Assembly (NCBI GenBank): GCA_021792405.1
Contig: JAJYUU010000032.1
Location: 1 to 38,557 of the forward strand
Length of the DNA: 38,557 nt
Direction: 5' to 3'
Source: Actinomycetes bacterium
Lineage (GTDB): Bacteria > Actinomycetota > Actinomycetes > Streptosporangiales > Streptosporangiaceae
Shown here: positions 21,806 to 36,724 of the stretch, piece by piece
Layout: each line of letters starts with the position of its first letter
Position numbering within the stretch: the first letter of the stretch is position 1
The notes under the pieces: model-generated
The model's database searches: none
Seen by the model: the letters and a program-made list of their open reading frames with translations, nothing else
Told to the model about the DNA's origin: nothing
Translations under genes and position numbers: made by a program

Positions 21806-22912
21806 GTGCGGAAGATGCTCGGCCGCGTCGGTCTATGCGCTCGCCGGCCGGGTTTACTCATCCTGGCGATCGTTATCGTGACCGTGGCGCCGATGGCCCC
21901 GGCCACCTCGGTGAACCGGCCCGTGGCTGGCGCGCGCGGCACGGCCATGACCCCGCAGAAAGCGGGCATTGCCGAGCTGATGAGGTCGTATAACCCCGCG
22001 ACCGGGCTGATCGGCAAATCCTGGTGGCAGGCCGCGGTCGCGCTCTCCACCGTGGAGACCTACCAGCAGGCTACCGGCGACACCCGCTATCGCCGCGTCA
22101 TCTCGGCCGCCTTCGCTGACCACAAGGCCGGCCACTTCGAAGACGCCTATAACGACGACACCGGCTGGTGGGGACTTGCCTGGCTGCAGGCGTACACGAT
22201 GACCGGGGACAAGGCCTACCTTGCGATGGCGGAAACCGACGCCGGCTACATCCACCGGTCGTGGACTGGCGCCTGCGGGGGCGGGGTGTGGTGGTCAACC
22301 GCGCGGACGTACAAGAATGCCATCACCAACGAGCTCTTTCTAGAGCTGACTGCCTGGCTGCACAACAGCATCCGCGGCGACACCAAGTACCTGGGCTGGG
22401 CGACCGCCGAGTGGGACTGGTTCAGGCACAGCGGGATGATCAACCCCGCTGGCGTGATCAACGACGGGCTGACCGCGCACTGCGCGAACAATCACGAACC
22501 GACCTGGAGCTATAACCAGGGCGTCCTGCTGGCCGGCCTGGCCCAGCTGTACAAGGCGACGAAGAAGCGTGAGCTGCTGCGCACCGCGGAAGCCATCGGG
22601 ACGGCCGCGATCCGCCGGCTTACCGTGCGTGGCGTGCTGCACGAGCCCTGCACCGGAGCGGAATGCGGCAGTAATGCCGGTGGTGACGGCCAGTCGTTCA
22701 AGGGGATTTTCGTACAGGACCTCAAGGTCCTTGCGATCACTGCGCGGACGAGCGAGTTCGCCGGCTTTTTCCGCAGGCAAGCCCGGTCGATCGAGGCCTA
22801 CGACATGGATTGCCAGCATCAGCTCGGCATGGTCTGGTCCGGCCCGCTGACAGGCCGGACCTCCTACAGTCAGGCAAGCGCCGAGGATGCCCTGATCGCC
22901 GCTCTCAGCTGA
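21806..22912 (+). CDS. Secreted glycoside hydrolase family 76 (alpha-1,6-mannanase-like)
   Basis: The 368-residue protein begins with a signal peptide: basic residues, then L-L-I-L-A-I-V-I-V-T-V-A and an A-P-A-type cleavage region near 33. The mature part is an (alpha/alpha)6 barrel with the GH76 hallmark A-Y-N-D-D-T-G-W-W-G-L-A-W (Asp117/Asp118 as likely catalytic pair), W-W-S-T-A-R-T-Y-K-N-A-I-T-N-E-L and W-S-Y-N-Q-G-V-L-L-A-G-L. GH76 enzymes cleave alpha-1,6-mannans in fungal or yeast cell walls. Start GTG 21806 has AGGTG five bases upstream; ATG 21815 is an alternative. The 3' end overlaps the convergent PIG-L-like gene by 43 bp. Confidence 0.85.
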   Translation: MRKMLGRVGLCARRPGLLILAIVIVTVAPMAPATSVNRPVAGARGTAMTPQKAGIAELMRSYNPATGLIGKSWWQAAVALSTVETYQQATGDTRYRRVISAAFADHKAGHFEDAYNDDTGWWGLAWLQAYTMTGDKAYLAMAETDAGYIHRSWTGACGGGVWWSTARTYKNAITNELFLELTAWLHNSIRGDTKYLGWATAEWDWFRHSGMINPAGVINDGLTAHCANNHEPTWSYNQGVLLAGLAQLYKATKKRELLRTAEAIGTAAIRRLTVRGVLHEPCTGAECGSNAGGDGQSFKGIFVQDLKVLAITARTSEFAGFFRRQARSIEAYDMDCQHQLGMVWSGPLTGRTSYSQASAEDALIAALS

Positions 22913-23604
22913 GGCCCCTCTGCGCCCCCCACGGGCGCCCCCCACGGGTGCGGCACACTGGCTGCCGCAGGCAGCAGCCAGCGAAGGTGCTCGTGAGAGC
23001 TGAGGTCATCCAGAGCCCGGAGCACCTCGGGCAGCGCCTCGGACTGGCTGGCATGCGCCGTTGCGGCGCACCGCTGGACCGTCCTGGCGGCTTGGGCCCC
23101 CGATCCGAGCTCGACTGGCCAGCTGCCGCGGGCGCCGGGCGTGGTGCGGGCAGCGACAGTTACTCCGGCCCGTCCGGCCGCCAGGCACACCGCGCGGGCA
23201 GCCCTGGCGTCATCGGCGTCGCCCGCTGCCGGGTCCGCCACCAGGATCAGGTCCGGGCCATACTCGGCAATCGCCCGCTGTACCCGCTGGGCGAGGGCCG
23301 GCAGGGGGCAGTGGCTGAGGCCGCCGTCGGGGTAGTCGGCAACCGCGACCGAGCGGACGCCCAGCAGCCCGGCAGCCAGTTGCAGCTCCCACGGGCGGAC
23401 GGCCTCGAGTGGCCGGAACGTCGAGTTGAGGGGTGAGGCCTCGCCCCTGGTCAGGCAGAGCAGCGCGAGATCGGCGCCCGCCTCCCGGAACGCGTAGAGC
23501 AGCCTGCCGAGGCTCGCCGATTCCGCACCCGGCCTGGCCGTGACGGCCAGGACCGTGCGGGCGTCAAGGTCGCACAGCGACGTCGTGGCGATCGCTGATG
23601 GCAT
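22870..23604 (-). CDS. PIG-L (LmbE)-fold protein lacking the zinc-site residues
   Basis: The 244-residue protein follows the PIG-L deacetylase fold: V-L-A-V-T-A-R-P..., A-D-L-A-L-L-C-L-T-R-G-E-A-S, E-A-V-R-P-W-E-L-Q-L-A-A, V-A-D-Y-P-D-G-G-L and D-L-I-L-V-A-D-P. The metal-binding A-H-P-D-D-E is A-R-P-G-A-E, and the later H-P-D-H is D-A-D-D, so all zinc ligands are missing while the scaffold is intact. A catalytic deacetylase role is therefore unlikely; a binding role is possible. GGAGAGG precedes the ATG. It is the last gene of the leftward biosynthetic set, 47 bp after the small membrane protein. Confidence 0.78.
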   Translation of the reverse strand: MPSAIATTSLCDLDARTVLAVTARPGAESASLGRLLYAFREAGADLALLCLTRGEASPLNSTFRPLEAVRPWELQLAAGLLGVRSVAVADYPDGGLSHCPLPALAQRVQRAIAEYGPDLILVADPAAGDADDARAARAVCLAAGRAGVTVAARTTPGARGSWPVELGSGAQAARTVQRCAATAHASQSEALPEVLRALDDLSSHEHLRWLLPAAASVPHPWGAPVGGAEGPQLRAAIRASSALA

Positions 23605-23651: not shown

Positions 23652-23864
23652 TTACGGCTCGCCGCCCCCGTGCTGATCAGTCGGGGCCCGATCCGCGAGA
23701 GGCGCGGCGCCGGAATCGCCGCGACCCGGGGCGGGCTGATTCGCCTGGCGATCACGCGCTCGGCGACGCGGGCCGCGCGATCTGCGCATCCGCACGAAGA
23801 TCGCGGCCAGCGACAAGCCGAAGAACAGCCACGGGATCCCTACGATCAGGTCACTGCCGTTCAT
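23652..23864 (-). CDS. Small single-pass membrane protein
   Basis: The 70-residue protein has one hydrophobic helix at about 5-23 (L-I-V-G-I-P-W-L-F-F-G-L-S-L-A-A-I-F-V) followed by a strongly basic stretch (R-M-R-R-S-R-G-P-R-R-R-A-R) and a Pro/Gly/Asp-rich tail, suggesting N-out, C-in topology. ATG 23864 has GAGGAAGGG upstream; the ORF extends to 23903 without a better start. No family recognised. It lies between the acyltransferase and the PIG-L-like gene on the same strand. Confidence 0.6.
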   Translation of the reverse strand: MNGSDLIVGIPWLFFGLSLAAIFVRMRRSRGPRRRARDRQANQPAPGRGDSGAAPLADRAPTDQHGGGEP

Positions 23865-23972
23865 CGAGCCCTTCCTCGCTGCCATTGGCTCCCGACAGTT
23901 CACCAGGCTGTGTTGCGGTGCCGGTGTAGCTGCCGTGGCGGTGGCGTGGAGGCAGCGGACGATGCCGGAGCC

Positions 23973-24980
23973 TCAGCTGGCCACGGCAACGGACCTGGCC
24001 GCCGCCGCTGATCTGTCCCGCGGTGGCGGGACAAGGCCGAGGGTGACGAGATCCGCCGTACTCGCCCAGTAGCGCCAATGTGCCGGACTCCTGGTGATAA
24101 CAGCGCTCAGTTCGGCCGCGCAGCGCGCGAAGGCCGCCGCGGTGTCTCCTCCGGTCGGCAACGGGGCCGAGATTTCCAGCACCTGGTGCCGGTAGTCCGC
24201 GCAGCGGTGCAGAAATGTCATCAGCACCGGTGCTCCCGTTACCCGGGCGAGGGTCACGATCCCTGGCAGCAGACTGGCCTGGCCGCCGAGGAAGGGGACC
24301 GCGACGGCGCGTGCCTGGTCGCTGTCGAGCGGCGGCGCGTCGATGCAGATGGTCACAACTTCATTGGCGCGCAGCACCGCGGCTGCCCGCGCCGCTACGT
24401 CGACACGGCCCGGCCATGGCTCGATGTTCGGCCGTTGCCGGAGGCGTTGCAGCGGCCTGGCGTAGACCAGGGCCCAGAACCGCCGCTCCACGGCGGATAG
24501 GCCGGTCGCGTACTTGTGCTGCCAGCGCCCGATGGTGGTGACCGGATAGCCGCTGGGGTTCAGCAGGGAGAAAGCGCTGTCGAAGGACCCGAAGTGCGCT
24601 GAGCAGAGGATGGCTCCCTTGCCTCCGGCGAGCGCGGTCTCCAGGTGCTCCCGGCCGCGAATCTCGACCAGCCGCCGCAGCGGTAGCGCGCTATGCCGTA
24701 GCCGCTTCACGTCGACAGCCTGGCAGGACGCGAGCCGGAACCACTCTCGGGTTACGTCCTGCGCCGCCGCCGGGCTGAGCTGACTTCCGAGCACCTGCCG
24801 TAGGTTGGCTGCCAGTTCGGTCCGCTCGGCGGCGTGCCGCCGGAACAGCCAGTCGCCCCGCCAGCAGGCGAGGCGATAGCCGACGGCAGCCGGCAGCCGT
24901 GCCAGGGCGGGTGCGCCAGCAGCCCAGTAGGCCACGCCGCCTATCTTGCGGAGCACCCGCCCTTCCCGGCTGTCACCCAT
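23973..24980 (-). CDS. LpxL/HtrB-like lysophospholipid acyltransferase
   Basis: The 335-residue protein has the HtrB/LpxL-type arrangement: an N-terminal amphipathic region (W-A-A-G-A-P-A-L-A-R-L-P), H-F-G-S-F-D (His129-x4-Asp134, the acyltransferase catalytic motif), a middle V-V-T-I-C-I-D-A-P-P segment, P-F-L-G-G-Q-A-S-L-L-P-G-I-V-T-L-A-R and H-W-R-Y-W near the end. These enzymes move an acyl group from ACP or CoA to a hydroxyl or amine. Its first eight bases overlap the carrier-protein gene (24973-24980), which suggests that the carrier's cargo is its acyl donor (inference). It is not PatA-type mannoside-island context: no glycosyltransferases are nearby. Confidence 0.82.
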   Translation of the reverse strand: MGDSREGRVLRKIGGVAYWAAGAPALARLPAAVGYRLACWRGDWLFRRHAAERTELAANLRQVLGSQLSPAAAQDVTREWFRLASCQAVDVKRLRHSALPLRRLVEIRGREHLETALAGGKGAILCSAHFGSFDSAFSLLNPSGYPVTTIGRWQHKYATGLSAVERRFWALVYARPLQRLRQRPNIEPWPGRVDVAARAAAVLRANEVVTICIDAPPLDSDQARAVAVPFLGGQASLLPGIVTLARVTGAPVLMTFLHRCADYRHQVLEISAPLPTGGDTAAAFARCAAELSAVITRSPAHWRYWASTADLVTLGLVPPPRDRSAAAARSVAVAS

Positions 24981-25233
24981 GTGCCGCCTGCTTCTCGGGC
25001 TCTCTGGCGCGGAGGTACGCGCAGATGGTGTTCACGCTGGCGAAATTCTCCGGGAGCAGATCCGCGTCACCCACCGTGATCGCGAAGCGCTCCTCCAGGA
25101 AGACCACCAATTGCAGCAGGCTCAGCGAGTCGAGGATGCCACTGTCCAGCAGTGATGCCTCGTCGGCCAGGGGCAGCAACTCGGGGTCGCGGACCAGTTC
25201 CTGGCTGATGTAGTCCTTGATGATCGTCTCCAC
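24973..25233 (-). CDS. Stand-alone acyl/peptidyl carrier protein
   Basis: The 86-residue carrier protein has the phosphopantetheine site G-I-L-D-S-L-S-L-L-Q-L-V with Ser36, in a four-helix layout of usual length. Start is GTG 25233, with AAAGG eight bases upstream. It is followed by the acyltransferase with an 8-bp overlap and preceded by the adenylation gene, whose likely product would be loaded on Ser36. In the PltL/RedO family such a protein carries prolyl then pyrrolyl groups. Confidence 0.92.
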   Translation of the reverse strand: METIIKDYISQELVRDPELLPLADEASLLDSGILDSLSLLQLVVFLEERFAITVGDADLLPENFASVNTICAYLRAREPEKQAAHG

Positions 25234-25299
25234 GTGGACGCCTTTCTTCCTTGGGTTAGTAGTGATGAGCGTCAGTTCCGGTGAGCCCGCGCCGACGGG

Positions 25300-26946
25300 C
25301 TACTCGCTGGCGAGGCCGGCGCGGTCGACCTTGCCGGTCGACGTTCTCGGCAGCGCCTGCCGGATCTCGACGAGGTCGGGGACCATGTAGCTCGGCAGCC
25401 ATTGCCGGCAGTGATCCAGCACGCTCTGTCGACCCAGGCTGCCCGGCTCGTCGGCGGTGACGACCGCCCGCAGGCGGTTGCCGAGTAGTTCGTCTGGTAC
25501 CGGCACCACTGCCGCCTCCCTGATGGCCGGATGCCGGTACAGCGCGGCTTCCACCTCGCCCAGTTCGACGCGGTAGCCGCGAATCTTCACCATGGCGTCC
25601 CGGCGGCCGAGGTAGCGGTAGTTTCCGGCCTGGTCCAGGGTGACCAGGTCGCCTGTCCGGTACACGGGCTCCTCGTATTCGGCCCGGAACGGGCTGGCGA
25701 CCAGCACCTCCCTTGTCGTGGCCGGCTGGCCCCAGTACCCGCGCATCAGCGAGGGCCCGCGCACGTACAACTCGCCGACCTCGCCGGGCAGCGACACCCG
25801 GCGGCCTTCGCCAGTGACCCCGAACACCTCGGTGTTGGCGCAGGCCTTGCCGATGGGGACGGGCCCGGCGCCGGCACTGCCTGGCGGCACCTCGAACGCC
25901 GTGCACACGTTGGTCTCGGTGGGCCCGTACCAGTTCAGGTAGCGAGGGTGCGGGAGGCCGGTCATCAGCCGGGCCAGGTACCTGGGCGGGAACACCTCTC
26001 CGGCGAAGATCACCGTCCGCAGGCGGGCAAGGTCAAACTGCTGCAGGCCGCCATAGCAGGCGAGCAGCGTGAGCACCGATGGCACCGAGTACCAGACCGA
26101 GATGCGCTCGGATTCGAGCCATCGCGCGATCGACACCGGGAAGGTTGCCGCCCCCTCGGGCAGCACGCACAGGCAGGCGGCGGCCCGACAGGTGGCGAAC
26201 AGGTCGAAGACTGACAGGTCGAAGTGGAGCGGGGCTGGACTGCAGACGCGGTCCTGGTCGCTGAGCCCGGCAGCGGCAGCTGACCATTCGACGAATGAGA
26301 GCGAGTTGCGGTGGGAGATCATCACGCCCTTCGGCATCCCGGTCGACCCCGAGGTGTACAGGATGTAGGCGAGGTCGGTCTCGATCGCCTGGTCCGGCAA
26401 CGGCGCGGCTGACTCTGCGGCCACCGCGCTCCACGGCAGAATGGCCGCGCCCTGATCCGTGGACGGCCCGGCCTGCACGCCGTCCTGGCTGCCGGGAACG
26501 CCGGCCACCAGGACGCCGCGCGCCTGGAGAACGCGGCTTGCCTCCGGAACGCGGCTTGCCTCCGGAACGCGGCTTGCCTCCGGAACGCGGCTTGCCAGGG
26601 CCGCGGCGTGCGGCGCCCGCGCCTCGTCCGCGATGATGACGGTCATGCCGCTGTCCGCCGCGACATGGCTGAGCCGCTGGTCGGGTGCCTTCGGGTCGAG
26701 CGGCACATAGCAAGCGCCAGCCTTCAGGGCGCCGTATATCCCGATGACCGACGCTGCCGACTTGGGGGCGAGCACTCCCACCCGGTCGCCGGGTGACACG
26801 CCCAGCCGGAGCAGCGCGCGGGCCACCTTGTTGCTCAGCTGGTCCAGCTCCTGGTAGGTGAGCACGCAGCCACTGGCCGCTATCGCCGGCCGTCGCGGCT
26901 GCCGGGCCGCTGCCTCAGTCAGCAAACGGTGAAGCAGATATGCCAT
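25300..26946 (-). CDS. Stand-alone amino-acid adenylation enzyme (PltF/RedM-like)
   Basis: The 548-residue ANL enzyme has all adenylation core motifs: Y-T-S-G-S-T-G-M-P-K-G (198-207), F-D-L-S-V-F-D (242-248), N-W-Y-G-P-T-E-T-N (338-346), Y-R-T-G-D-L-V (429-435), K-I-R-G-Y-R-V-E-L-G-E (454-464) and S-T-G-K-V-D-R (536-542). Residues aligning with the GrsA pocket read D-L-F-Y-I-A-W-V-C-K, close to the D-L-L-Y-L-A-L-V-C-K I remember for prolyl ligases of pyrrole pathways (PltF, RedM, CloN4), with three hydrophobic changes. The motif V-W-Y-S-V-P-S is also typical of these. An insertion at 118-141 comes from an 18-bp tandem repeat. No condensation or carrier domain is fused. Confidence 0.88.
   Translation of the reverse strand: MAYLLHRLLTEAAARQPRRPAIAASGCVLTYQELDQLSNKVARALLRLGVSPGDRVGVLAPKSAASVIGIYGALKAGACYVPLDPKAPDQRLSHVAADSGMTVIIADEARAPHAAALASRVPEASRVPEASRVPEASRVLQARGVLVAGVPGSQDGVQAGPSTDQGAAILPWSAVAAESAAPLPDQAIETDLAYILYTSGSTGMPKGVMISHRNSLSFVEWSAAAAGLSDQDRVCSPAPLHFDLSVFDLFATCRAAACLCVLPEGAATFPVSIARWLESERISVWYSVPSVLTLLACYGGLQQFDLARLRTVIFAGEVFPPRYLARLMTGLPHPRYLNWYGPTETNVCTAFEVPPGSAGAGPVPIGKACANTEVFGVTGEGRRVSLPGEVGELYVRGPSLMRGYWGQPATTREVLVASPFRAEYEEPVYRTGDLVTLDQAGNYRYLGRRDAMVKIRGYRVELGEVEAALYRHPAIREAAVVPVPDELLGNRLRAVVTADEPGSLGRQSVLDHCRQWLPSYMVPDLVEIRQALPRTSTGKVDRAGLASE
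26530..26597 (-). repeat. 18-bp tandem repeat inside the adenylation gene
   Basis: The unit AACGCGGCTTGCCTCCGG is repeated about 3.8 times in frame, encoding a six-residue A-S-R-V-P-E repeat on a surface loop between the N-terminal segments and core motif A3. Confidence 0.9.
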
Positions 26947-27006
26947 CGCTATTCCTTTTCGAATGCGCCGAAATCGCCGTGACGCTGCGCCGGCTGTCCT
27001 GACGGC

Positions 27007-28152
27007 TCATAGGCCGAGCATCCGGGCGAGTATCACCCGCTGGATCTCCGAGGTTCCCGAGTAGATGGTGCTGGCGATCGCGTCCCGGAGATCGCGCTCA
27101 ATCCCCGCTTCCTTCAGGTAGCCCCATGCGCCGTGGGCTTGGATCGCATCGCGGCTGGAGGCCACCCATGCTTCGCTGGTGAAGAGCTTGGCGGCAGCCG
27201 CCTCGGCCGGAGCGGACTTGCCCTGCTGCTTGAGCCAGGCGACCCGGTAGATCAGCAGCTTCGCCGCCTCCAGGCGCACGTACATGTCGGCCAGCTTCCC
27301 GGCCACAGCCTGAAACTTTCCGATGGGCTGGCCGAACTGCTGCCGGGAGTTCGCGTACTCCACGCACGCGTCGAGTTGCCGGCGCATGGCGCCGACGGCG
27401 CTGGCGAACAGGCAGCTTCGCTCCCATTCCATGGAGGAGTTGAAGATGGCCATGCCTGCGCCTTCAGGTCCCAGCCGGTTCTCGGCAGGAACGAGGCAGT
27501 CGGTCAGCGCTATCTCGCCCATCGGCGAGGTCCGCAGGCCCATCTTGTCCCAGCCGCCGGTTATCTCGACGCCGGGTGCCCGGGCGTCGACCAGGAACGC
27601 GGATAGCCCGGTCAATCCGGGACGGTCCGCCACCTGGGCGTAGAACAGCAGCACATCGGCGACCGGAGCGTTCGTGATGTACTGCTTGGCCCCGGTCAGC
27701 AGGTAGTGATCGCCGTGGCGCTCGGCCCGTGATCGCAGGTGCAGGGCATCGGAACCGGTGCCGGGCTCCGTCATCGCGTGCCCACCGATGATGTCCCCGG
27801 ACACCAGGCCGGGCAGGTAGGCCTGCTGCTGGGCGGCGGTGCCGAAGATGACCAGCGGCAGTTCGACGCTCCACATCTGCGCGTTGAGCGAGAAGAGGAG
27901 CCCGTTGTCCTGGCAGCCGTAGCCGAGGGCTTCCATGACGAGGGCAGTGGTGAGGACGTCGCAGCCGGCGCCGCCCAGTTCGGCGGGTACGGGCAGGCCC
28001 TGGACACCGAACTTGGCACAGGCCCGCCAGGCGTCCCGCGGGAACTCTCCGGCCTCGTCTCGCTTGGCCAGATCCTGGTTGAGCTCCTTCCGGGCGAATG
28101 CGGTCGCCGCCTCCGTCAGTTCGCGCTGCTGCGCGCTCAGCGAGAAGTCCAC
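27007..28152 (-). CDS. Acyl-CoA dehydrogenase-like flavoprotein (PltE/RedW-type candidate)
   Basis: The 381-residue flavoprotein has G-G-H-A-M-T-E-P-G-T-G-S-D (FAD/substrate loop, about 123-135), K-M-G-L-R-T-S-P and C-terminal R-D-A-I-A-S-T-I-Y-S-G-T-S-E-I-Q-R. The Glu of the usual I-Y-E-G-T motif (base of medium-chain enzymes) is Ser365. Instead S-M-E-W-E-R-S places Glu244 where isovaleryl-CoA dehydrogenase and the prolyl-carrier oxidases have their base. Hence a dehydrogenase acting on a carrier-bound prolyl or branched acyl group is plausible. GTG 28152 follows AAGGTGA with 5-base spacing; the ORF to 28392 is an extension. It overlaps the amidotransferase gene by 16 bp. Confidence 0.87.
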   Translation of the reverse strand: MDFSLSAQQRELTEAATAFARKELNQDLAKRDEAGEFPRDAWRACAKFGVQGLPVPAELGGAGCDVLTTALVMEALGYGCQDNGLLFSLNAQMWSVELPLVIFGTAAQQQAYLPGLVSGDIIGGHAMTEPGTGSDALHLRSRAERHGDHYLLTGAKQYITNAPVADVLLFYAQVADRPGLTGLSAFLVDARAPGVEITGGWDKMGLRTSPMGEIALTDCLVPAENRLGPEGAGMAIFNSSMEWERSCLFASAVGAMRRQLDACVEYANSRQQFGQPIGKFQAVAGKLADMYVRLEAAKLLIYRVAWLKQQGKSAPAEAAAAKLFTSEAWVASSRDAIQAHGAWGYLKEAGIERDLRDAIASTIYSGTSEIQRVILARMLGL

Positions 28153-29012
28153 CCTGTCACCTTGTCTGTAGTCCTGGCGTTTCCGGCCGGCCGCGTCGCT
28201 GGCATCCGCGCTGGCGGCCCGATCCGGGATACGGCGGCCGCGGCTGCCCGCCACCGCCCGGCCGGCCGCCGGGCAAGCCGGAGCGCGGCCCCATGCGCCT
28301 GCACCTCCGCCCGGTCGGTGAGCGGGGCAAGCGGGCTGACGTCCTGATAGTGATGCGCCAGCGCCCTGGACAGCAGGTGATCGGCCAGCCACGGGTTCTT
28401 CGGCAGCACCGGACCGTGCAGGTAGGTGGCATACACCTCGCGGTAGCGGGCGCCCTCGGTGCCGTCCTCGCCGTTGTTGCCGGCTCCGGCGAGCACCCTC
28501 CCCAGCGGCCTGACGTTGCCGCCGAGGTAGGTGCGCCCGCTGTGATTCTCGAACCCGGCCAGCCGGTGCTGGCTGCCGGGACCCAGGTCGCAGTGCACCG
28601 CCACATGGCCGATGAATCGCTTCGGGCCGCCCTCGGTCACGACGTCCAGCACTCCGATGCCGTGGATGGGCGGTCCTTCCGGCGGGGCGTAGTACCGGCC
28701 CAGGAGCTGGTAGCCGGCGCAGACGGCCAGGACGACGGCGTCGGACTCGATCGCCTCTCGAAGCGCGCCGGACTTCGCTGCGAGGTCCTGCGCGGCCGCC
28801 GTCATCTCGCGATCCTGGCCGCCGTGCAACAGGATCAGATCGGTCTCCGCGAAGTCAGGGACGACCCCGACATCGGCCTCGGTCACGCTGTAGCGGATCC
28901 CTCGCCATGCGCAGCGCTGCATGAGAGCGAACAGGTTGCCCCTGTCACCCGCGACGCTCAGCAGCCTCGGGTACAGGTAGCAGATGCGGACCGTCATCGG
29001 CGCCGCCGTCAT
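28137..29012 (-). CDS. GatD-like type-1 glutamine amidotransferase (CobB/CobQ-like)
   Basis: The 291-residue protein has the class-I glutaminase elbow A-V-C-A-G-Y-Q-L-L-G (Cys98) and catalytic His199 in Y-L-H-G-P-V-L-P-K-N-P-W-L-A-D, plus L-Y-P-R-L-L-S-V-A-G-D-R-G-N and L-H-G-G-Q-D-R-E of the GatD family. GatD gives ammonia to MurT for amidating glutamate on lipid II. The ATG at 29012 (GGAGGAGTGAGG upstream) is 4 bp after the MurT-like stop. About 45 C-terminal residues, Arg/Ala-rich, exceed the family norm and overlap the flavoprotein start. The Cys and His residues are intact, so it should be active. Confidence 0.87.
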   Translation of the reverse strand: MTAAPMTVRICYLYPRLLSVAGDRGNLFALMQRCAWRGIRYSVTEADVGVVPDFAETDLILLHGGQDREMTAAAQDLAAKSGALREAIESDAVVLAVCAGYQLLGRYYAPPEGPPIHGIGVLDVVTEGGPKRFIGHVAVHCDLGPGSQHRLAGFENHSGRTYLGGNVRPLGRVLAGAGNNGEDGTEGARYREVYATYLHGPVLPKNPWLADHLLSRALAHHYQDVSPLAPLTDRAEVQAHGAALRLARRPAGRWRAAAAAVSRIGPPARMPATRPAGNARTTDKVTGWTSR

Positions 29013-29016
29013 GGCC

Positions 29017-30603
29017 TCACTCCTCCCAGAACGGCGACACCCACGCGTGCCGCTGCATGATGCTCCGCAGCTCTCGCATCGGGGTGTAGCCAGCGAAGAT
29101 GTACAGCGACTCGCCTGGCGGCGTCCGGGTGAGCGCGGCGCGCAGGGCAGCCGCGCGATCATGGATGACCAGTGTGCTGCCGGGTTCAGCACCCGCGTAC
29201 TTGAACCGCAGCATGACCTCCTCCGCCCTGGTCCCGCTGACGGTAAGGCTCGCTAGCCGCGGTACGAGCTGCTCGAGGTCCACGTCCCACAGCCAGGCGA
29301 AGTCTTCCCCGTCGACCACGGTGTTGCTGTGCGCGGCCAGGACGTGCTTTCGGCCGGGCCGCTGCAGCACCTCCCGCATGGTGGCGTTGTAGGACGTCGG
29401 GTTCTTGACGAACGCGAGTACCACCTGCCGGTCGCCTGCCTGGATCTCCTCCAGGCGGCCGAACGCCGGGCGCAGCCGTGCTAGGGCAGCGCGCGCGCCG
29501 GCCGGCTCCAGCGGCCGCGGCAGGACCAGTGCGATCGCGCAGCTGAGCGCCGCCGCCGCGTTGTACACGTTGTGCAGGCCGGCCAGCGGCACGTCGAGCG
29601 GGAATGCTCCCTGCGGTGTCTGCACCGTGATCTTTGACCCGGCTTCGGGCGACGACCGCACTTCGGTCACCGCGACATCCAGCGCCGGGCGGGCGCTGTG
29701 GCACTCCGGGCACCAGTAATCGCCCAGGTGGGAAAGGTGCACCGCGCGGTAGCTCAGCGGGTGCTGGCAGCGGACGCAGCGGATGGTGTCTGCGGCGTGC
29801 TCTGGCTCGGGCAGGCCGGCGCTGTCAGCCTGGATTCCGAAGTAAAGCCGGCGCGCGCGTGCCGCCGGGGCGAGGCTGGCTACCAGCGGGTCATCGCCGT
29901 TGAGCACCACGGTTGCTGACGCCGGAAGCGCCTCGATGACCTCCTCGAGGCCCTTCGCCATCGAGTACAGCTCTCCGAAGCGGTCTAGCTGATCACGGAA
30001 GATGTTCGTGACCAGGAACGTGTGGGGCCGCACCTGCGGATTCACCTGCCGTACGGTCGCCTCGTCGACCTCCAGCAGCAGAAGCTGAGCGTCCAGCCGG
30101 CCGCGCAGGTCCGCCCCGCGCACGGCGGCTGAGATCACCCCTTGCAGCAGGTTGGAGCCAGACCGGTTCTGGGTGACCGTGAGGCCGCTGGCCTGCGCGA
30201 GGGCAGCGAGCATGCGACAGGTCGTTGTCTTGCCGTTGCTGCCGGTGACGACCACCTTGCCGGCGTCGCTCGCGGCCGCGATCTTCCGCAGGATGTGCGG
30301 GTCGATCCGGTGGGCGACGGTTCCGGGGAAGCTAGTCCCGCCGCCGGCCCGCAGCGCCTTGGAGGCGGCCTCCGCCGCCTTGCCAGCCGCGAGCGCGAGC
30401 GCGAGGCGCGCTTGCGCTGACGGCGGCAGGGGTGCGCTGCCGCCACCGGAGGTGACGGCGGGCGGGCTGGTCACGACGCGCACCTGACGTGTTCCCTGCA
30501 CCTGACGTGTTCCCTGCATCTGATGTTCGCCCTGCATCTGATGTTCGCTCTGCACCTGACGCTCTCCCCGGACCGGTGCGTGCCGTGGCGTCCGGGCTGT
30601 CAT
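29017..30603 (-). CDS. MurT-like Mur ligase (DUF1727) with N-terminal repeat region
   Basis: The 528-residue ligase has the Mur P-loop T-G-S-N-G-K-T-T-T (120-128), L-L-E-V-D-E, T-N-I-F-R-D-Q-L-D-R-F-G-E, V-L-N-G-D-D-P, a four-cysteine zinc knuckle (C276-x2-C279...C298-x2-C301) and a C-terminal DUF1727 domain with W-L-W-D-V-D-L-E and I-F-A-G-Y-T-P-M-R-E. This is MurT, which with GatD turns a glutamate carboxylate into an amide using ATP. Residues 12-41 are five copies of an 18-bp repeat; the conserved part starts at about 60. ATG 30603 overlaps the decarboxylase stop (ATGA). Either a housekeeping lipid II amidase or a recruited tailoring pair; the operon context favours the latter. Confidence 0.86.
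   Translation of the reverse strand: MTARTPRHAPVRGERQVQSEHQMQGEHQMQGTRQVQGTRQVRVVTSPPAVTSGGGSAPLPPSAQARLALALAAGKAAEAASKALRAGGGTSFPGTVAHRIDPHILRKIAAASDAGKVVVTGSNGKTTTCRMLAALAQASGLTVTQNRSGSNLLQGVISAAVRGADLRGRLDAQLLLLEVDEATVRQVNPQVRPHTFLVTNIFRDQLDRFGELYSMAKGLEEVIEALPASATVVLNGDDPLVASLAPAARARRLYFGIQADSAGLPEPEHAADTIRCVRCQHPLSYRAVHLSHLGDYWCPECHSARPALDVAVTEVRSSPEAGSKITVQTPQGAFPLDVPLAGLHNVYNAAAALSCAIALVLPRPLEPAGARAALARLRPAFGRLEEIQAGDRQVVLAFVKNPTSYNATMREVLQRPGRKHVLAAHSNTVVDGEDFAWLWDVDLEQLVPRLASLTVSGTRAEEVMLRFKYAGAEPGSTLVIHDRAAALRAALTRTPPGESLYIFAGYTPMRELRSIMQRHAWVSPFWEE
30481..30570 (-). repeat. 18-bp tandem repeat at the 5' end of the MurT-like gene
   Basis: Five 18-bp units, two of CACCTGACGTGTTCCCTG, two near-copies and one degenerate copy. 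In frame they encode a six-residue Gln-rich repeat (forms such as E-H-Q-M-Q-G and T-R-Q-V-Q-G). Confidence 0.9.
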
Positions 30604-32195
30604 CGCAGCCCCGGCAGGCCGCCGGCCGCTTCGGCCAGGACGCGGCGCCGCCCGGCGTCTGTGACGGCGTTGACGATGGTGTGCACGTGGCCCTCGTCAA
30701 GGGCGTAGTGCAGGGCGCAGGACCGCAGCGCGAAGCGGCCGCGGATGTCCGTGCCGGCCAGGAACGCCTGCCCGCCGACTTGAAGATCGGCCATGATCGC
30801 CTGGTTCAGCAGGTCCAGGCTCACCTCGTCGCCGCGGACGGCCGGCACGTACCGGAAGCACACCGCGGTCAGCGGCCCGGTTGCCAGCAGTTCCAGGTCA
30901 GGGCTGGCCTCGATGACCTTCTCCAGGTAACGCGCCAGGTCGACGTGCCGCTGGACGTGATGGACCAGGCCGCTCTTCCCGGCCTGCTGGATGTTCCAGA
31001 AGGTCTTGAGCGCCCGGCCGGAGTCCCTGGTTTGCTCGGCGCTGCGATGCGAGTACCAGGTATCGCCGGCGAATCCCAGTCCAGGCGGCAGGCTGAGGTA
31101 GGAGGGGACGAGCTTGTAGGTGTCCTGTAGCAGTGCGCCCTGCCGCACTATCGCGCAACTGCAGCCGACGGCCACGGCCAGCCACTTGTGCGGATCGAGG
31201 GCGACTGAGTCGGCCCGCTCGAGCCCGGAGTACCAGTGCGCGAGCCGAGGGTCGAGAACCCCGAAGCCGCCGTAGGCGCCGTCGACGTGCAGCCAGAGGT
31301 CCTCCTTGCGGCAGAAGTCAGCGAGATCATCGAGCGGGTCGATGGCGCCTGTCTTCACGCTTCCCGCGTTCGCGGCTACCAGGACGGGCAGGCAGCCAGC
31401 CTCGCGGTCAGCCGCGACCACAGCCCGCAGGCGGGCCAGGTCCATCCGGAAGTCCGCCCCGACGGCCACCTTCCGCGGGGCACCGAGACCGAGGGTGAAT
31501 GCAGCCTTTTCCAGGCAGGAATGCCCCTCGGCCGACATGTACATGGTGAGCTTCGGGTGTCCGGACAGGCCTTCCTCGCGGACGTCCCAGCCGCCCGCCC
31601 GCGCGCCGGCGTACCGCGCGACTTCCAGGCAGTGCCGGTTCGCGTCCGAGCCGCCGCCGAGGAGGACCCCGTCGCTGGAGCCCGGCGGGAAGCCGACGAG
31701 TTCGGCAAGCCATCGGACAACCGCGCGCTCCACGTATATAGCAGCGTAATTACCACCAGCTCCGCTCGTATTGGTGACCGCCGCAGCAAATGCCGCCAGC
31801 ATGCTCAGCTTTGACGCGGCCGGGTCAACAAACGCGGCGAAACACGGATGATTCTGGCCCCTGCCGTAAGGCAGCACCAGCCGGAGAAAGCCGTCGATGA
31901 TCTTCTCCGGAGATTCTCCCTCGGCGGGTAGCTCCATTCCCTCTAGTTCTTGCCTTACTTCGGCCGGCAATGGGCGGTAAACGGGCTCCTGCGGAAGCTT
32001 GTCTAGATAGGCGGCAAGCGTCTCTACTAGCCGGTTACCGAGAAGCCGGAAGTCATTTCCGTCCATTGCGAAGGGCGAGGGTGCCCTGCTGTAGTCTGCG
32101 CTGGCGGCAGCAGCCTGCTCCTCGGCATTCGACCGCTGAGCGCATGCGAGCCCGCCCTGGTCCGCGCCGTCGACGACGGGAATTGTGAGCCCCAT
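30600..32195 (-). CDS. PLP-dependent (group II) amino-acid decarboxylase
   Basis: The 531-residue fold-type I enzyme has H-P-C-F-A-A-F-V (substrate loop), S-A-E-G-H-S (His225, ring stacking), W-L-H-V-D-G-A-Y-G-G (Asp305) and D-P-H-K-W (Lys337, Schiff base). It belongs with aromatic-L-amino-acid, glutamate and diaminobutyrate decarboxylases; I cannot fix the substrate. It would supply an amine to the pathway. ATG 32195 is chosen because AGGAG lies about 11 bases upstream, in the leader of the operon. It is the first gene, followed by the MurT-like gene with an ATGA overlap. Confidence 0.9.
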   Translation of the reverse strand: MGLTIPVVDGADQGGLACAQRSNAEEQAAAASADYSRAPSPFAMDGNDFRLLGNRLVETLAAYLDKLPQEPVYRPLPAEVRQELEGMELPAEGESPEKIIDGFLRLVLPYGRGQNHPCFAAFVDPAASKLSMLAAFAAAVTNTSGAGGNYAAIYVERAVVRWLAELVGFPPGSSDGVLLGGGSDANRHCLEVARYAGARAGGWDVREEGLSGHPKLTMYMSAEGHSCLEKAAFTLGLGAPRKVAVGADFRMDLARLRAVVAADREAGCLPVLVAANAGSVKTGAIDPLDDLADFCRKEDLWLHVDGAYGGFGVLDPRLAHWYSGLERADSVALDPHKWLAVAVGCSCAIVRQGALLQDTYKLVPSYLSLPPGLGFAGDTWYSHRSAEQTRDSGRALKTFWNIQQAGKSGLVHHVQRHVDLARYLEKVIEASPDLELLATGPLTAVCFRYVPAVRGDEVSLDLLNQAIMADLQVGGQAFLAGTDIRGRFALRSCALHYALDEGHVHTIVNAVTDAGRRRVLAEAAGGLPGLR

Positions 32196-32582
32196 GGACT
32201 CCGAACTCCTCTCGGGGGAATGCAAATCTCAGCAACAATGTTTCGGCGCAGGGGCCATTCCCGTGGCCGGCCGGGGTAAACAGCGTGACAATTAATGAGT
32301 TAAGAAAATGCGCGTAACGAACAAGCCAACCCAGCGCCCGGCGGCATGGCGATGTGGTTTCATGCTGTTGAGGGTGTGAGTTTGTTATCGGGGTGAGTTT
32401 GTTGTCGGGGTCAGTTTGCGTGGATGCGTGCGGGGTTGCCGCGCGCTCGCAGGTCGTCCGCTTGCCCGTCATCGGCAGCGGACGACTCGCTGCGACGCGG
32501 CGGGCCGGCAGGAACCCTTCGCCTGCCCGGGCCGCCGGAGCTGATCGGGCCGCTGCCATCCTCAGCTGAGAGGACTGTTCTG
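32196..32582. promoter_or_regulatory. Divergent promoter region of the biosynthetic cluster
   Basis: This 387-bp gap separates the leftward decarboxylase operon from the rightward ferredoxin-P450 pair. It holds an AT-richer stretch (about 32280-32330) unlike the surrounding DNA and three 17-bp direct repeats (32376-32418). The -10/-35 boxes cannot be fixed with confidence. No regulator gene is encoded in the cluster, so control probably comes from elsewhere. Confidence 0.55.
32376..32418 (+). repeat. Three 17-bp direct repeats in the divergent promoter
   Basis: GTGAGTTTGTTATCGGG, GTGAGTTTGTTGTCGGG and a third partial copy beginning GTCAGTTTG follow each other head to tail at 32376, 32393 and 32410. 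They are non-coding, and a phased tandem array between divergent operons suggests an operator. Confidence 0.75.
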
Positions 32583-32783
32583 GTGAAACTGCAGATCGAA
32601 GCCGGCCTGTGCCAGGGGCACGGACGCTGCTACGACCTCGCGCCCGGCCTGTTCGGTGATGACGAGGAGGGCTACGGGACGGTGCTGGGCGACGGTGTCG
32701 TGCCGCCAGAGCAGCAGGACGACGCCCGGCGTGCGGCGCTCAACTGCCCGGAGCACGCGATCGCGCTTGTCGAAGGGACGTGA
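32583..32783 (+). CDS. 3Fe-4S ferredoxin
   Basis: The 66-residue protein has Cys10, Cys16 (C-Q-G-H-G-R-C) and Cys55 (N-C-P-E-H-A-I), the three-cysteine pattern of actinobacterial [3Fe-4S] ferredoxins that feed electrons to P450s. Start GTG 32583 has GAGAGGA upstream; the longer ORF to 32424 is not family-like. Its stop is 1 bp before the P450 GTG, so it is almost certainly the redox partner of that enzyme. Confidence 0.92.
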   Translation: MKLQIEAGLCQGHGRCYDLAPGLFGDDEEGYGTVLGDGVVPPEQQDDARRAALNCPEHAIALVEGT

Positions 32784-32784
32784 C

Positions 32785-34053
32785 GTGACTGTCGACAACC
32801 GCTTCGCCGGGCACCTGTGGGAGAGGCGCGACGGTGAGTCCCCCGGCATCCGCAGTGAGATAGTCACCGGCCCGGTCGCCGACTGGGCGACAGACTTCTC
32901 GCACACCGAGCCCGAGTGGGCGCAAGACCCGTTTTCGATCCAGGACGATCTGCGGCAGCGCTGCCCGATCGCGCACACCGGCAGGTTCGGCGGCGCCTGG
33001 CTGGCGACCCGCTACGAGGACGTGGCAGCGATCGCCTACGACACCGAGCACTTCTCCTCCCGGTCGGTCATCATGGGAAACTTCCGGCCGCCGCGTGAAC
33101 TGGCGCCGATCGGCGGCTCCCCGCCGATCACCTCCGACCCGCCGTTTCACCGCGCGGCACGCAAGCTGCTGCTCCCGGCGTTCACCAAGGCGGCAGTCAG
33201 CAAGCAGGAGCCGGCGGCCAGGGCGCTGTGCCACTCGCTGATCGATGCGTTCGACGGACGCGATGTCGTGGATGCCGCCGCCGAGTACGCGCAATACATC
33301 CCGATCCGGGTCATCGCCGACATGCTCGGCTTCCCGGCGGGGGACGGGGCACAGTTTCGTGAGTTCGCCAAGAACACCCTCGAAGGCATCAACCTGCCGC
33401 CGGAAGAGCGCGTCACCCGCAAGTCGGCGCTGTTTTACTACCTGTTCGCGCAGGTGCACGACCATCTGGAGAACCCGCGGGATGACCTGACCACATTCCT
33501 GATCAACGCCGACCTGAACGGCCGCAAGCTAGACGTCTCGCACGTCGTCGGCACGATGACGCTGTTGCTCATCGCCGGCATCGACACGACATGGAGCGCG
33601 ATCGGCGCCTCGCTGTGGCATCTGGCCGCCTTCCCGCGGGACCGCGAGCGGTTGGCCGCCGAGCCAGGGCTGCTGCCGGTCGCGATTGAGGAGTTCCTGC
33701 GGGCCTATGCCCCGGTCACCATGGCCCGGCTGGTGAAGCAGGACCTGCACTTCCGCGGGGCCGACATGAAGGCCGACGACTGGGTCCTGCTGTCGTTCCC
33801 GGCGGCGAACCGCGACCCGGCGCAGTTCGAACGGCCGGGTGAGGTGGTCATCGACCGCGAGGTCAACCGGCACGCGGCGTTCGGCCTTGGCATCCATCAC
33901 TGCCTCGGTGCGCGGCTGGCGCGGATGGAGTTGCAGGTAGCGCTTGAGGTGTGGCTGCAGCGAATTCCGAGCTTCAGCCTTGCTGATCCGCCGGCGGTGC
34001 AGTGGTCGGCCGGTCAGGTCCGCGGGCCGCGCGCGCTTGCCCTGCGAATCTGA
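32785..34053 (+). CDS. Cytochrome P450
   Basis: The 422-residue bacterial P450 has the I-helix A-G-I-D-T-T (264-269), an E-E-F-L-R ExxR motif, and the heme loop F-G-L-G-I-H-H-C-L-G-A with Cys373. No membrane anchor, so it is soluble. The substrate is not predictable; a late oxidation of the cluster product is inferred from the linked ferredoxin and its divergence from the biosynthetic operon. GTG 32785 is preceded by AAGGGA. The ORF extends upstream through the ferredoxin but not with a better start. Confidence 0.93.
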   Translation: MTVDNRFAGHLWERRDGESPGIRSEIVTGPVADWATDFSHTEPEWAQDPFSIQDDLRQRCPIAHTGRFGGAWLATRYEDVAAIAYDTEHFSSRSVIMGNFRPPRELAPIGGSPPITSDPPFHRAARKLLLPAFTKAAVSKQEPAARALCHSLIDAFDGRDVVDAAAEYAQYIPIRVIADMLGFPAGDGAQFREFAKNTLEGINLPPEERVTRKSALFYYLFAQVHDHLENPRDDLTTFLINADLNGRKLDVSHVVGTMTLLLIAGIDTTWSAIGASLWHLAAFPRDRERLAAEPGLLPVAIEEFLRAYAPVTMARLVKQDLHFRGADMKADDWVLLSFPAANRDPAQFERPGEVVIDREVNRHAAFGLGIHHCLGARLARMELQVALEVWLQRIPSFSLADPPAVQWSAGQVRGPRALALRI

Positions 34054-34106
34054 AGCGCGCAGCGGATCTGCCGCGGACGGCGCCGCGCCTTGGCAAATGA
34101 CGACGC

Positions 34107-35858
34107 TCAGACCGCCGCGCCGGCGCACCGGGCCGCCACCCGAGGCTGCACGATGTCCTCGATCATCTCGCGCGGGACAGTCATGTCGTCGAACCAGCGG
34201 CCGCCGAACGGACGCCGCACCGGGATGATCTGATCGCTTGAGTAGGCAAGGATCTTCCGGTTGTACGAACGGATCTCATCCCGTAGCGCGGCCGGCAGCT
34301 TGCTGTCGAGTACCAGGGCTCGTTCCATTTCCCCGAGCAGTTGCCGTGTCTCCTCGATGGTCGTCAGTATGGCCTGGCAGAACCAGGTCGGCAGTACCCC
34401 GTACTCGCCCTTGACCTCTACCAGGCGGGCAATTGCCTCGTAGGAGACGTCCTGCAGCTGGCGCCTGTCCAGCCAGCGTGTCTGGTAGTTCAGCCGCCGG
34501 TACCACAGCGGCTCGACCATCGCGCGCCGGTGTTCCTCCAGCGTGCGGTGGAAGATCCGGTAACCATGCTGGTCCGGCTCCTCGAAGAACCGGCATCCTG
34601 GATCAAGGAACGGCACCATCGGGCAGATCAGCGGTAGCGCGTCCCAGCCGCCGAACTTGCGTATCAGCCGCTCGGAGTACGCCACCGTATCCAGCACCGA
34701 CTGCCGGTCCTGGTGCGGCATGCCGATGAAGAACCAGATCATGACGCCCTTCACCCCGGCGTCCAGGGCACGCGGAATCCAGGCCTCCATCTCCGCCATC
34801 GTGTAGGTGCCGCGGCCGGCCGCGGCGCTTATCTTGGGGTCGTGGGATTCCGGGGAGAGCATGATGTAGGCGGTGGTCGACTCGCCCATCTTCTTGAGCG
34901 TATCGGGCGGAGTCAGGTTGAACTGCTCGAAGAAGACGCTGTTGTAGCCAACCTCTTTGACCGCGTCCAGATACTGGTGCATCCGCACCTTGTTTTCTGA
35001 ATAACACTGAAGCGCGTATATCGAGGTGTGCTTCGCGGCTTCGCCCATGGTCCGGAGCTCTTTCACGATGAGCTCGTTGTCCTTCTGGATCAGGGTCTTG
35101 CGGACGCCCATGATGTTGCGGTAGGAGAAGCGCGATCCGCCGCACCAGCCGCAGTCATGCGCGCACCCGGTATTGGGCAGGGTCATGATCAGCTTGGACG
35201 CCGACGGTCCGGCGCCGAGCGTATCGCGGTAGAACGACCAGTCGTTACGCGCGTCGTTGTACCGGGTGGCCGGCTTATGGGTGAAACCGGTCGACTGGAC
35301 CTCTCCGCCGGTCTTGTAGAGCAGATTCGGGATGGAGCTCAGATCCCGGCGGCCTTGCCGGACCCGCCTGACTAGTTCGGCCACCGGTTCCAGGGTGTCG
35401 TAGCCCTGCACCACGACGTCGACGCTCGGGTAGCGGATAAGCTGACTGGCGTAATACGTCGCCGAGATGCCGCCGAAAATGGTCAGCGCATCCGGGTGCG
35501 CTTCTTTCAGGACCGCCGCCAGCTCAATGGCGCCATGACATTGCGTCATCCAGTGCAGGTCGAACCCGAAGATCGGCGCCTCCAGGCGCTCCAGCAGCTT
35601 TCTGACATCCAGGTCGGGATGCATGAGCATCAGCGAGGCGACGTTCACGATCTTCGTGTCGAAACCGTGGTCAGCCAGGTGCTGCTTGATCGAGAACCAG
35701 CCGATCGGGTACATCTCGTATATCGAGGTGACATTGACGCTGTCGCTGTCGCTCAGGTACGCGAACAGCATGTCGTCGCGCTCGCGGAAGTCATAGACGC
35801 TGGGCGCGTGCAGCAGGAAAAGGTCGGCCTCGAGCCGGGACGTTATCTCCTGATTCAT
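34107..35858 (-). CDS. B12-binding-domain radical SAM protein (TIGR04190-like)
   Basis: The 583-residue protein has an N-terminal cobalamin-binding-like Rossmann domain (P-S-V-Y-D-F-R-E and E-M-Y-P-I-G-W at 20-54, I-F-G-F-D-L-H-W, T-I-F-G-G-I-S-A-T) and a radical SAM core with C232-x3-C236-x2-C239 (G-C-A-H-D-C-G-W-C). The opening resembles the Ta0216 family (TIGR04190) as I remember it. Class B enzymes of this type often methylate unactivated carbons, but this subfamily has no firm function. ATG 35858 is preferred (AAGGGG ten bases upstream) over 35888. It converges on the P450 gene, 53 bp away. The 280 bp upstream contain no recognisable cobalamin riboswitch. Confidence 0.88.
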   Translation of the reverse strand: MNQEITSRLEADLFLLHAPSVYDFRERDDMLFAYLSDSDSVNVTSIYEMYPIGWFSIKQHLADHGFDTKIVNVASLMLMHPDLDVRKLLERLEAPIFGFDLHWMTQCHGAIELAAVLKEAHPDALTIFGGISATYYASQLIRYPSVDVVVQGYDTLEPVAELVRRVRQGRRDLSSIPNLLYKTGGEVQSTGFTHKPATRYNDARNDWSFYRDTLGAGPSASKLIMTLPNTGCAHDCGWCGGSRFSYRNIMGVRKTLIQKDNELIVKELRTMGEAAKHTSIYALQCYSENKVRMHQYLDAVKEVGYNSVFFEQFNLTPPDTLKKMGESTTAYIMLSPESHDPKISAAAGRGTYTMAEMEAWIPRALDAGVKGVMIWFFIGMPHQDRQSVLDTVAYSERLIRKFGGWDALPLICPMVPFLDPGCRFFEEPDQHGYRIFHRTLEEHRRAMVEPLWYRRLNYQTRWLDRRQLQDVSYEAIARLVEVKGEYGVLPTWFCQAILTTIEETRQLLGEMERALVLDSKLPAALRDEIRSYNRKILAYSSDQIIPVRRPFGGRWFDDMTVPREMIEDIVQPRVAARCAGAAV

Positions 35859-36148: not shown

Positions 36149-36678
36149 CGAGGCTCGCCGTAGCGGCATAGTGGCTGTGCCGGGGTCGCGGCGCCGGTCA
36201 CGGGATCGGTCAGGGCGCCTGGAATGATATCGGGGGCTTTGCCCTTCTCGACCCAGTTGACCTGCGCCGCTGGCGCAGTGCTGAGCGCCCGGCGCGAGGA
36301 ACAGCCTGGCAAAGGAGTCGGTCTGGCTCGGGCCGCCCATCGTGTGCTGCACCTGCCGGTAGTACCTCACCGTGCCCTGCGGGAAGATGAGAGATCTTCG
36401 TCATCACCGCGGCGTCCTGCCGCCTGATGACACCGCAGGGTGTCACGTCGCCCACCAGGGCGTCCGGGTTCCAGTGACACGCCGAGGGATTGATGATGGA
36501 TGGCAGGCGCCATCTCGCAGTAGTACGGCCCGCAGGAGTAGATCGCCCCGCCGGTTCCCTGGAATCGCCCGTTCCACGAGGCAGGGAGCCAGACGTCGGT
36601 GTGGATCGGATTCCCGGCCGGGTCGGTCTGGGTGATGGTGACGTCGCAGAAGGCTGGCAGCCGGAACGCGTAAATTCT
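36139..36678 (-). pseudogene. Tannase/feruloyl esterase family pseudogene
   Basis: Reading leftward, three frames give successive pieces of a tannase/feruloyl esterase: F-C-D-V-T-I-T-Q-T and W-L-P-A-S-W-N-G-R-F-Q-G-T-G-G from the N-terminal region; then, shifted, N-P-D-A-L-V-G-D-V-T-P-C-G-V-I with D-A-A-V-M-T-K-I; then D-S-F-A-R-L-F-L-A-P-G-A-Q-H-C; then, shifted again, V-N-W-V-E-K-G-K-A-P-D and P-L-C-R-Y before TAG. About 180 codons remain of some 500, so the central part with the nucleophilic Ser is deleted. Upstream of 36678 is an in-frame stop. It cannot make an active esterase. Confidence 0.75.
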
Positions 36679-36724
36679 TTAGCCCGAAACGGTGCAATTT
36701 CCTTCGAGATCATGGCCTAGCACA

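Follow-up and report, generated by a model that had tools for sequence, protein, structure and literature searches.

The window analysed here, a stretch of 38,557 nucleotides from a genome of the Streptosporangiaceae (contig JAJYUU010000032.1 of assembly GCA_021792405.1), carries at 23652-35858 a locus that is, on balance, best explained as a whole as a conserved cluster for a specialised metabolite. Its ten-gene core encodes a B12-binding radical SAM enzyme (rSAM), a ferredoxin (Fd), a cytochrome P450, a pyridoxal-phosphate (PLP) decarboxylase (PLPdc), a MurT-like ligase, a GatD-like amidotransferase, a flavoenzyme with acyl-CoA dehydrogenase domains (ACAD), an adenylation enzyme (Aden), an acyl carrier protein (ACP) and an LpxL-like acyltransferase, and these are genuine genes that are conserved and subject to purifying selection. 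The half of the cluster that deals with proline is of a known kind; the new element, not described in the literature searched, is its coupling to MurT/GatD and to an LpxL-type transferase. It is proposed more tentatively, as something that may well turn out otherwise, that MurT/GatD has moved out of peptidoglycan synthesis to become a dedicated carboxamide synthase and works together with LpxL-type unloading of the carrier, so that two envelope families would act in a route free of nonribosomal peptide synthetases (NRPS) and polyketide synthases (PKS). An earlier note on this DNA had known of no described pathway with this gene set, and none is found among the matches listed in the open-licence literature, nor is MurT/GatD in a small-molecule cluster.

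In the pathway envisaged for the cluster as a whole, proline would be activated by the adenylation enzyme and loaded onto the ACP, and prolyl-ACP would be oxidised to the thioester of either a pyrroline- or, as is favoured, a pyrrole-2-carbonyl group. The LpxL-like enzyme, as a stand-alone offloading transferase, would then pass the acyl group to an acceptor made by the other half of the cluster, at either an amine or a hydroxyl. In that half, the PLP decarboxylase would supply or trim an amine, and MurT (through ATP and an acyl phosphate) and GatD (with ammonia from glutamine) would convert a carboxylate on an intermediate other than a muropeptide to a primary carboxamide. The P450 and its ferredoxin would carry out an oxidation, and the B12 radical SAM enzyme would probably C-methylate, a role taken from this enzyme class as a whole. 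If true, a peptidoglycan enzyme pair would here have gained a new function, forming an amide on a small molecule, and an acyl group would leave its carrier protein by a new route, in a lineage represented here, as far as its records are named, by metagenome-assembled genomes (MAGs) alone. The combination of PLP decarboxylase, MurT, GatD and prolyl-ACP dehydrogenase provides a compact search signature, and the co-occurrence pattern indicates which genes to express together.

Conservation and co-occurrence of the cluster genes

Comparison with the nearest relative gives dN/dS values of 0.00-0.29 for the ten core genes; these low values, together with a gene order that recurs in other genera, indicate that the locus is more than a chance assembly. 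The order PLPdc-MurT-GatD-ACAD-Aden-ACP-LpxL was recovered by tblastn with the window proteins in seven genomes of four genera (g1, g36, g41 and g55), namely that of the window, G004, G007, G008, G601, G048 (where LpxL is cut by the contig end) and G043. The run of G043 is divided between two contigs, which are taken to adjoin inside Aden because both end there; G007 carries rSAM-P450-Fd on a separate contig broken off within Fd, and the cluster contig of G048 ends inside P450. The flanks vary, with a catalase-like gene (by eye) and an SDR gene in locus L055 and a histidine-kinase-like gene in L056. A scan for loci with two short peptide patterns, reaching close relatives only, gave seven loci from 31 stretches, all of them MAGs (Streptosporangiaceae, 4; Nocardiopsaceae, 1; Actinobacteria bacterium, 2); loci fetched twice were counted once (L042/L052, L044/L056, L045/L058, L046/L054, L043/L053 and L081/L055). 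Among 396 genomes sampled from the phylum, no second member-like decarboxylase was found, the best after the own copy (1090 bits) scoring 310.

The earlier note had treated these genes as a unit, and they do co-occur in relatives across genera, with the proline half occurring also without the rest. Within a set of 16 genomes, cluster-type PLPdc (>1000 bits) and cluster-type MurT (>700 bits) are both present in seven and both absent from nine, a pattern to be read as support and not as a statistic because the genomes are mutually related and were selected for the same genus or the presence of cluster genes (the window's own genome was scored from the window). The nine do contain weaker homologs of the decarboxylase and of MurT. 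An intact rSAM gene is present in 6/7 of the genomes with PLPdc and cluster-type MurT and in 0/9 of the others. Among 297 genomes of the family, window-type LpxL was found in 10 (E 1e-25) and window-type ACAD of at least 776 bits in nine, the next best scoring 471 bits; both counts include the own genome. In G060 ACAD-Aden-ACP-LpxL lies downstream of a GH11 gene, the contig stopping within LpxL, and no cluster-type PLPdc, MurT or rSAM was found there; since these four genes stay together without the rest, the LpxL-like enzyme appears tied to the carrier-bound group. G002 has ACAD-Aden running off a contig end and is without cluster-type PLPdc, MurT and rSAM in the searches run. Remnants, consisting of incomplete Aden or ACAD or of an internally reduced rSAM gene, occur in G039, G613 and locus L057.

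Decaying copies at L057:9079-11593 and L083:8219-10205 contain an internally shortened rSAM gene adjoining PLPdc or LpxL, in an order unlike that of the window. A remote relative from another family (L106, genome G125) has an adenylation enzyme (DLFYLALVCK), ACAD and ACP together, with no cluster LpxL or MurT alongside by tblastn.

Two candidates for membership were rejected. The small membrane protein that the earlier note had placed in the operon has no family, is weakly constrained (dN/dS 0.74, 59 codons) and, in tblastn, exceeds 40 bits in G004, the nearest relative, alone; it was not found in G008, G601 and G043, whose sequence continues past LpxL, the other contigs ending too early. A PIG-L deacetylase gene (22870-23604) is likewise found at >40 bits only in G004 and is also weakly constrained (0.46).

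The proline half, the MurT/GatD pair and their known relatives

That this half activates and oxidises proline is, as a prediction from sequence, well supported, because the adenylation pocket equals that of 7thn and the closest solved relative of the flavoenzyme is a prolyl-ACP dehydrogenase. The best single-domain solved relatives of the adenylation enzyme are 6o6e and 7thn (presumably PltF and PigI), both L-proline:carrier ligases. Its nine pocket residues, DLFYIAWVC, at positions assumed to follow GrsA numbering, are identical to those of 7thn, those of 6o6e being DLLYLALVC (from printed alignments); the pocket is unchanged in seven of the eight clade relatives where it is readable, with AC in place of VC in L107. 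The LDS serine of the ACP is present in 9/9 aligned sequences. The top solved match of the flavoenzyme is the prolyl-ACP dehydrogenase 4irn (417 bits), with which it has in common a WER glutamate, presumably the catalytic residue, that is invariant in 5/5 aligned sequences. The PigA and RedW profiles likewise match it, with 423 and 416 bits. The excerpt available of the chalkophomycin paper mentions a glutamate of the prolyl-carrier dehydrogenase, without residue number, and describes an adenylation/carrier/dehydrogenase trio with four-electron oxidation to pyrrole (PMC10849742). The earlier note had suggested a carrier-bound acyl group, perhaps pyrrole-2-carbonyl: given the pocket and the 4irn match, the group is very probably derived from proline and pyrrole is a fair guess, pyrroline being another possible end point.

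By sequence, thiotemplated pyrrole-2-carboxyl pathways share with the window a proline-type adenylation enzyme, a separate carrier with its phosphopantetheine serine and an ACAD-type dehydrogenase with the glutamate; the systems meant are RedM/RedW, PigI/PigA, PltF/PltE, CloN4/CloN5/CloN3 and ChmJ/ChmI/ChmH. In contrast to them, neither a PKS or NRPS nor a further carrier was found alongside the present locus, an LpxL-like enzyme stands beside the carrier, and a decarboxylase and MurT/GatD are joined to it. The comparison with clorobiocin, whose CloN6 we take to be a B12 radical SAM enzyme, differs in that the acyltransferase here is LpxL-type, there is one carrier, and the radical SAM enzyme is nearest to TIGR04190, under its cut-off (385 of 500 bits). 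Common to both are the pyrrole trio, an acyltransferase and a methyltransferase, the latter putative in the window, the Clo proteins concerned being CloN1, CloN2, CloN6 and CloN7 (roles from PMC11218499). Among the 11 open reading frames (ORFs) scanned at 23652-35858, no second carrier and no CloN2/CloN7-type transferase was found. Aryl polyene clusters have a carrier-bound acid and a lysophospholipid-type acyltransferase (ApeD) as well, but differ in their polyunsaturated acyl chain, their Gram-negative hosts and a gene list that, in the excerpted text, is without MurT/GatD or proline enzymes (PMC8253772).

The earlier note had considered that MurT/GatD might be the genome's only copies, an idea that was rejected because a second, separate pair of housekeeping type exists at C311. 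The cluster MurT is ~32-35% identical to this housekeeping MurT, and in the MurT tree the cluster copies form a separate 100/100 clade on a long branch, the C311 copy falling among 22 housekeeping-type rows; the tree carries a long-branch warning, and the cluster clade and the stand-alone paralogs are joined at only 92/90. The partial L050 and L051 were excluded from the tree and included in the motif alignment. With the lipid II isoglutaminyl synthase MurT/GatD, the cluster pair shares both subunits, the ATP-loop (P-loop), the four-cysteine zinc ribbon and the catalytic Cys, His and Asp; it differs in being an extra copy in a biosynthetic operon, in a changed DNAAD-region motif and in its separate clade. 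The Cys and His are kept in 7/7 cluster GatDs, and both Asp of DGxD in 7/7 cluster MurTs. One of these Asp is the triad Asp of MurT, the Cys and Asp having been shown to matter in S. aureus, and the DNAAD stretch has been suggested, as a proposal, to bind the stem peptide or muropeptide (PMC6113224). The cluster MurTs lack a DNAAD-type motif: in 7/7 the region reads S-N-T-[VS]-V-D, its first position being Ser where 28/30 other MurT rows have Asn. Housekeeping-type rows are also variable there (NAQMPD, NSQTAD etc.) and keep mainly the preceding Asn. Retention of the catalytic residues, together with the change of the muropeptide-linked motif, suggests a working, glutamine-dependent amidase for another, non-muropeptide carboxylate.

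The NCBIfam equivalog cut-offs were dropped as an identity test for MurT/GatD, being uninformative because the housekeeping pair fails too (157/800 and 117/400 bits, with 222/800 and 173/400 for the cluster pair). Other MurT/GatD paralogs of the family were rejected as biosynthetic copies, the six stretches concerned (L017 and L047-L051) being without window-type cluster genes besides MurT/GatD; L047 and L050 have weak adenylation-domain similarity and nothing further of cluster type. Among the stand-alone pairs of L017, L048, L049, L050 and L051 (from G002, G043, G008, G043 and G007, respectively), the GatD nucleophile Cys is replaced by Gly in 5/5 and the catalytic His by Arg in four and by Cys in one, and these amidases seem to be inactive. 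The MurT of L050 is split into two stretches.

Uncertain roles and competing explanations

Acyl transfer by the LpxL-like enzyme and amidation by MurT/GatD are plausible but unproven. The former enzyme matches PF03279 with 68.9 bits (cut-off 22.3), and its HX4D motif retains the His in 10/10 readable rows and the Asp in 6/10, L057 being outside these rows for want of a readable region. LpxL relatives usually acylate hydroxyls, and the decarboxylase-derived amine supposed in the earlier note is a putative acceptor. The solved relatives of the decarboxylase are aromatic, glutamate, cysteine-sulfinate and diaminobutyrate decarboxylases, and a substrate was not assignable from matches that span several types. 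AlphaFold models of the rSAM (mean pLDDT 38.6) and LpxL-like (49.6) enzymes, made from four-sequence alignments, were not used.

Several observations, besides the selection of the 16 genomes, weigh against the proposed pathway. The substrates and products of LpxL, PLPdc, P450, rSAM and MurT/GatD are putative. G043 has Asn in place of the HX4D Asp, and three relatives that lack cluster-type MurT have Gly or Ile; retention of the Asp in only six of ten rows weakens a simple LpxL mechanism. The flavoenzyme's scores against the dehydrogenase profiles are under the equivalog cut-offs, and 4irn is presumably the anatoxin enzyme AnaB, whose product we take to be pyrroline and not pyrrole; as this enzyme would stop earlier, pyrroline may also be the product here. 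A paralogous Fd-P450 pair lies outside the cluster in 8/9 genus genomes searched, and the sole P450-Fd pair found in G043 is paralog-like and unlinked to the cluster, which together make the P450 role uncertain. The rSAM gene is also unlinked in G043, and it was not found in the G048 assembly, whose cluster contig stops inside P450. The third triad residue of the amidase is disputed, a GatD Asp being proposed instead in PMC6085368.

Three other explanations were weighed. The known MurT/GatD substrate is lipid II (PMC6113224), the best curated relatives of the LpxL-like enzyme, all under cut-off, are acyltransferases of the phosphatidylinositol mannoside and lipid A types, and the lysophospholipid acyltransferase of aryl polyene clusters is proposed to anchor the product to lipid (PMC8253772). 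These points would suit an envelope modification, with an LpxL/PatA-type enzyme attaching a proline-derived acyl group to a glycolipid of the membrane or a precursor of the cell wall, MurT/GatD amidating the same molecule, and no diffusible product. Such a function is unlikely, however, given that the motif linked to muropeptide binding is altered in 7/7 cluster MurTs, that no role in the envelope is evident for the decarboxylase, the P450 or the B12 radical SAM enzyme, and that the cluster is patchily present and decaying in relatives.

The locus might instead combine two adjacent but unrelated modules with separate products, one for the proline-derived acyl group (ACAD-Aden-ACP-LpxL) and the other made up of decarboxylase-MurT-GatD-rSAM, as the proline module without the other half in G060 and G002 (both to contig ends, in the latter ACAD-Aden) and the unlinked rSAM gene of G043 would allow. 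Yet GatD and ACAD are consecutive on one contig in 7/7 genomes with PLPdc and cluster-type MurT, the second half occurs without the first in 0/16 genomes checked, and the overlap of ACAD with GatD in the window suggests a single transcript; this separation is thus rather improbable. Least probable of those considered is self-resistance, in which the extra MurT/GatD would be a product-insensitive copy of an amidase that the product inhibits in the housekeeping pair, and would not take part in building that product. Duplication of an essential enzyme within a cluster is a usual sign of resistance, and the genome does have a separate pair; against this stand the low identity to the housekeeping MurT, the long separate branch, the changed motif and the mid-operon position directly after the decarboxylase, its constant companion (7/7).

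Gene layout and neighbouring features

Profile search assigned 10 of the 11 ORFs to families, the 83-aa ORF being without one, and all the proteins named in the earlier note were recovered in their places (Table 1). The scores were 205 bits for Pyridoxal_deC, 79 for MurT_C, 70 for Mur_ligase_M, 124 for GATase_3, 291 for AMP-binding, 32 for PP-binding, 69 for Lip_A_acyltrans, 54 for Fer4_15, 87 for p450, 58 for B12-binding and 36 for Radical_SAM. The tight leftward operon of the earlier note agrees with the distances measured on the minus strand, the largest gap being 69 bp, and, as it had stated, there is no PKS or NRPS module and no regulator among these ORFs. In the seven-gene run from PLPdc to LpxL (ORF table and translations), neighbours overlap or lie at most 66 bp apart: PLPdc/MurT overlap by 4 bp, MurT/GatD are 4 bp apart (GatD start ATG 29012), GatD/ACAD overlap by 16 bp (ACAD start GTG 28152), ACAD/Aden and Aden/ACP are separated by 60 and 66 bp, and ACP/LpxL overlap by 8 bp; the 69 bp lie between LpxL and the small ORF. 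The ferredoxin and P450 genes run opposite to this operon from a 387-bp divergent gap, and the rSAM gene is convergent with P450.

Table 1. Features of the locus, with positions in the window
Feature	Position	Strand	Remarks
B12-binding radical SAM enzyme, TIGR04190-related	34107..35858	-	profile match; CX3CX2C present
Cytochrome P450, exact start unsure	32776..34053	+	profile match; 74-78% identity to paralog elsewhere in genome
Single 4Fe-4S ferredoxin, P450 partner	32583..32783	+	profile match; GTG start predicted from sequence
Divergent intergenic region, presumed promoters of both transcripts	32196..32582	.	sequence reading
Group II PLP decarboxylase	30600..32195	-	ATG start, TTG at 32225 alternative; DPHKW lysine conserved
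MurT-like Mur ligase	29017..30603	-	P-loop, Cys4 ribbon, Asp kept; DNAAD-region motif changed
GatD-like glutamine amidotransferase	28137..29012	-	Cys and His kept
Prolyl-ACP dehydrogenase-like flavoenzyme	27007..28152	-	GTG start
Stand-alone proline-type adenylation enzyme	25300..26946	-	pocket code DLFYIAWVCK
Carrier protein	24973..25233	-	GILDS serine
LpxL/PatA-superfamily acyltransferase	23973..24980	-	HX4D present in this copy
Small membrane-type ORF, 83 aa, probably outside the system	23652..23903	-	not conserved

The Fd-P450 paralog of the own genome (L134:6738-8211, on G000:C228) follows genes resembling those of ergothioneine synthesis (Methyltransf_33, FGE-sulfatase/DinB); in front of the paralog, L135 and L136 have a gene that looks TetR-like by eye. 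Elsewhere in the window, 36210-36713 seems to hold the remains of a tannase/feruloyl esterase gene, whose counterpart in the nearest relative (L042:2501-4189) is an intact frame of 562 aa. An acetate kinase gene adjoins that of a phosphoketolase (XFP) at 7831-11420, a pair of the phosphoketolase route, and CBS-BON proteins are encoded at 813-1799 and 5723-6679.

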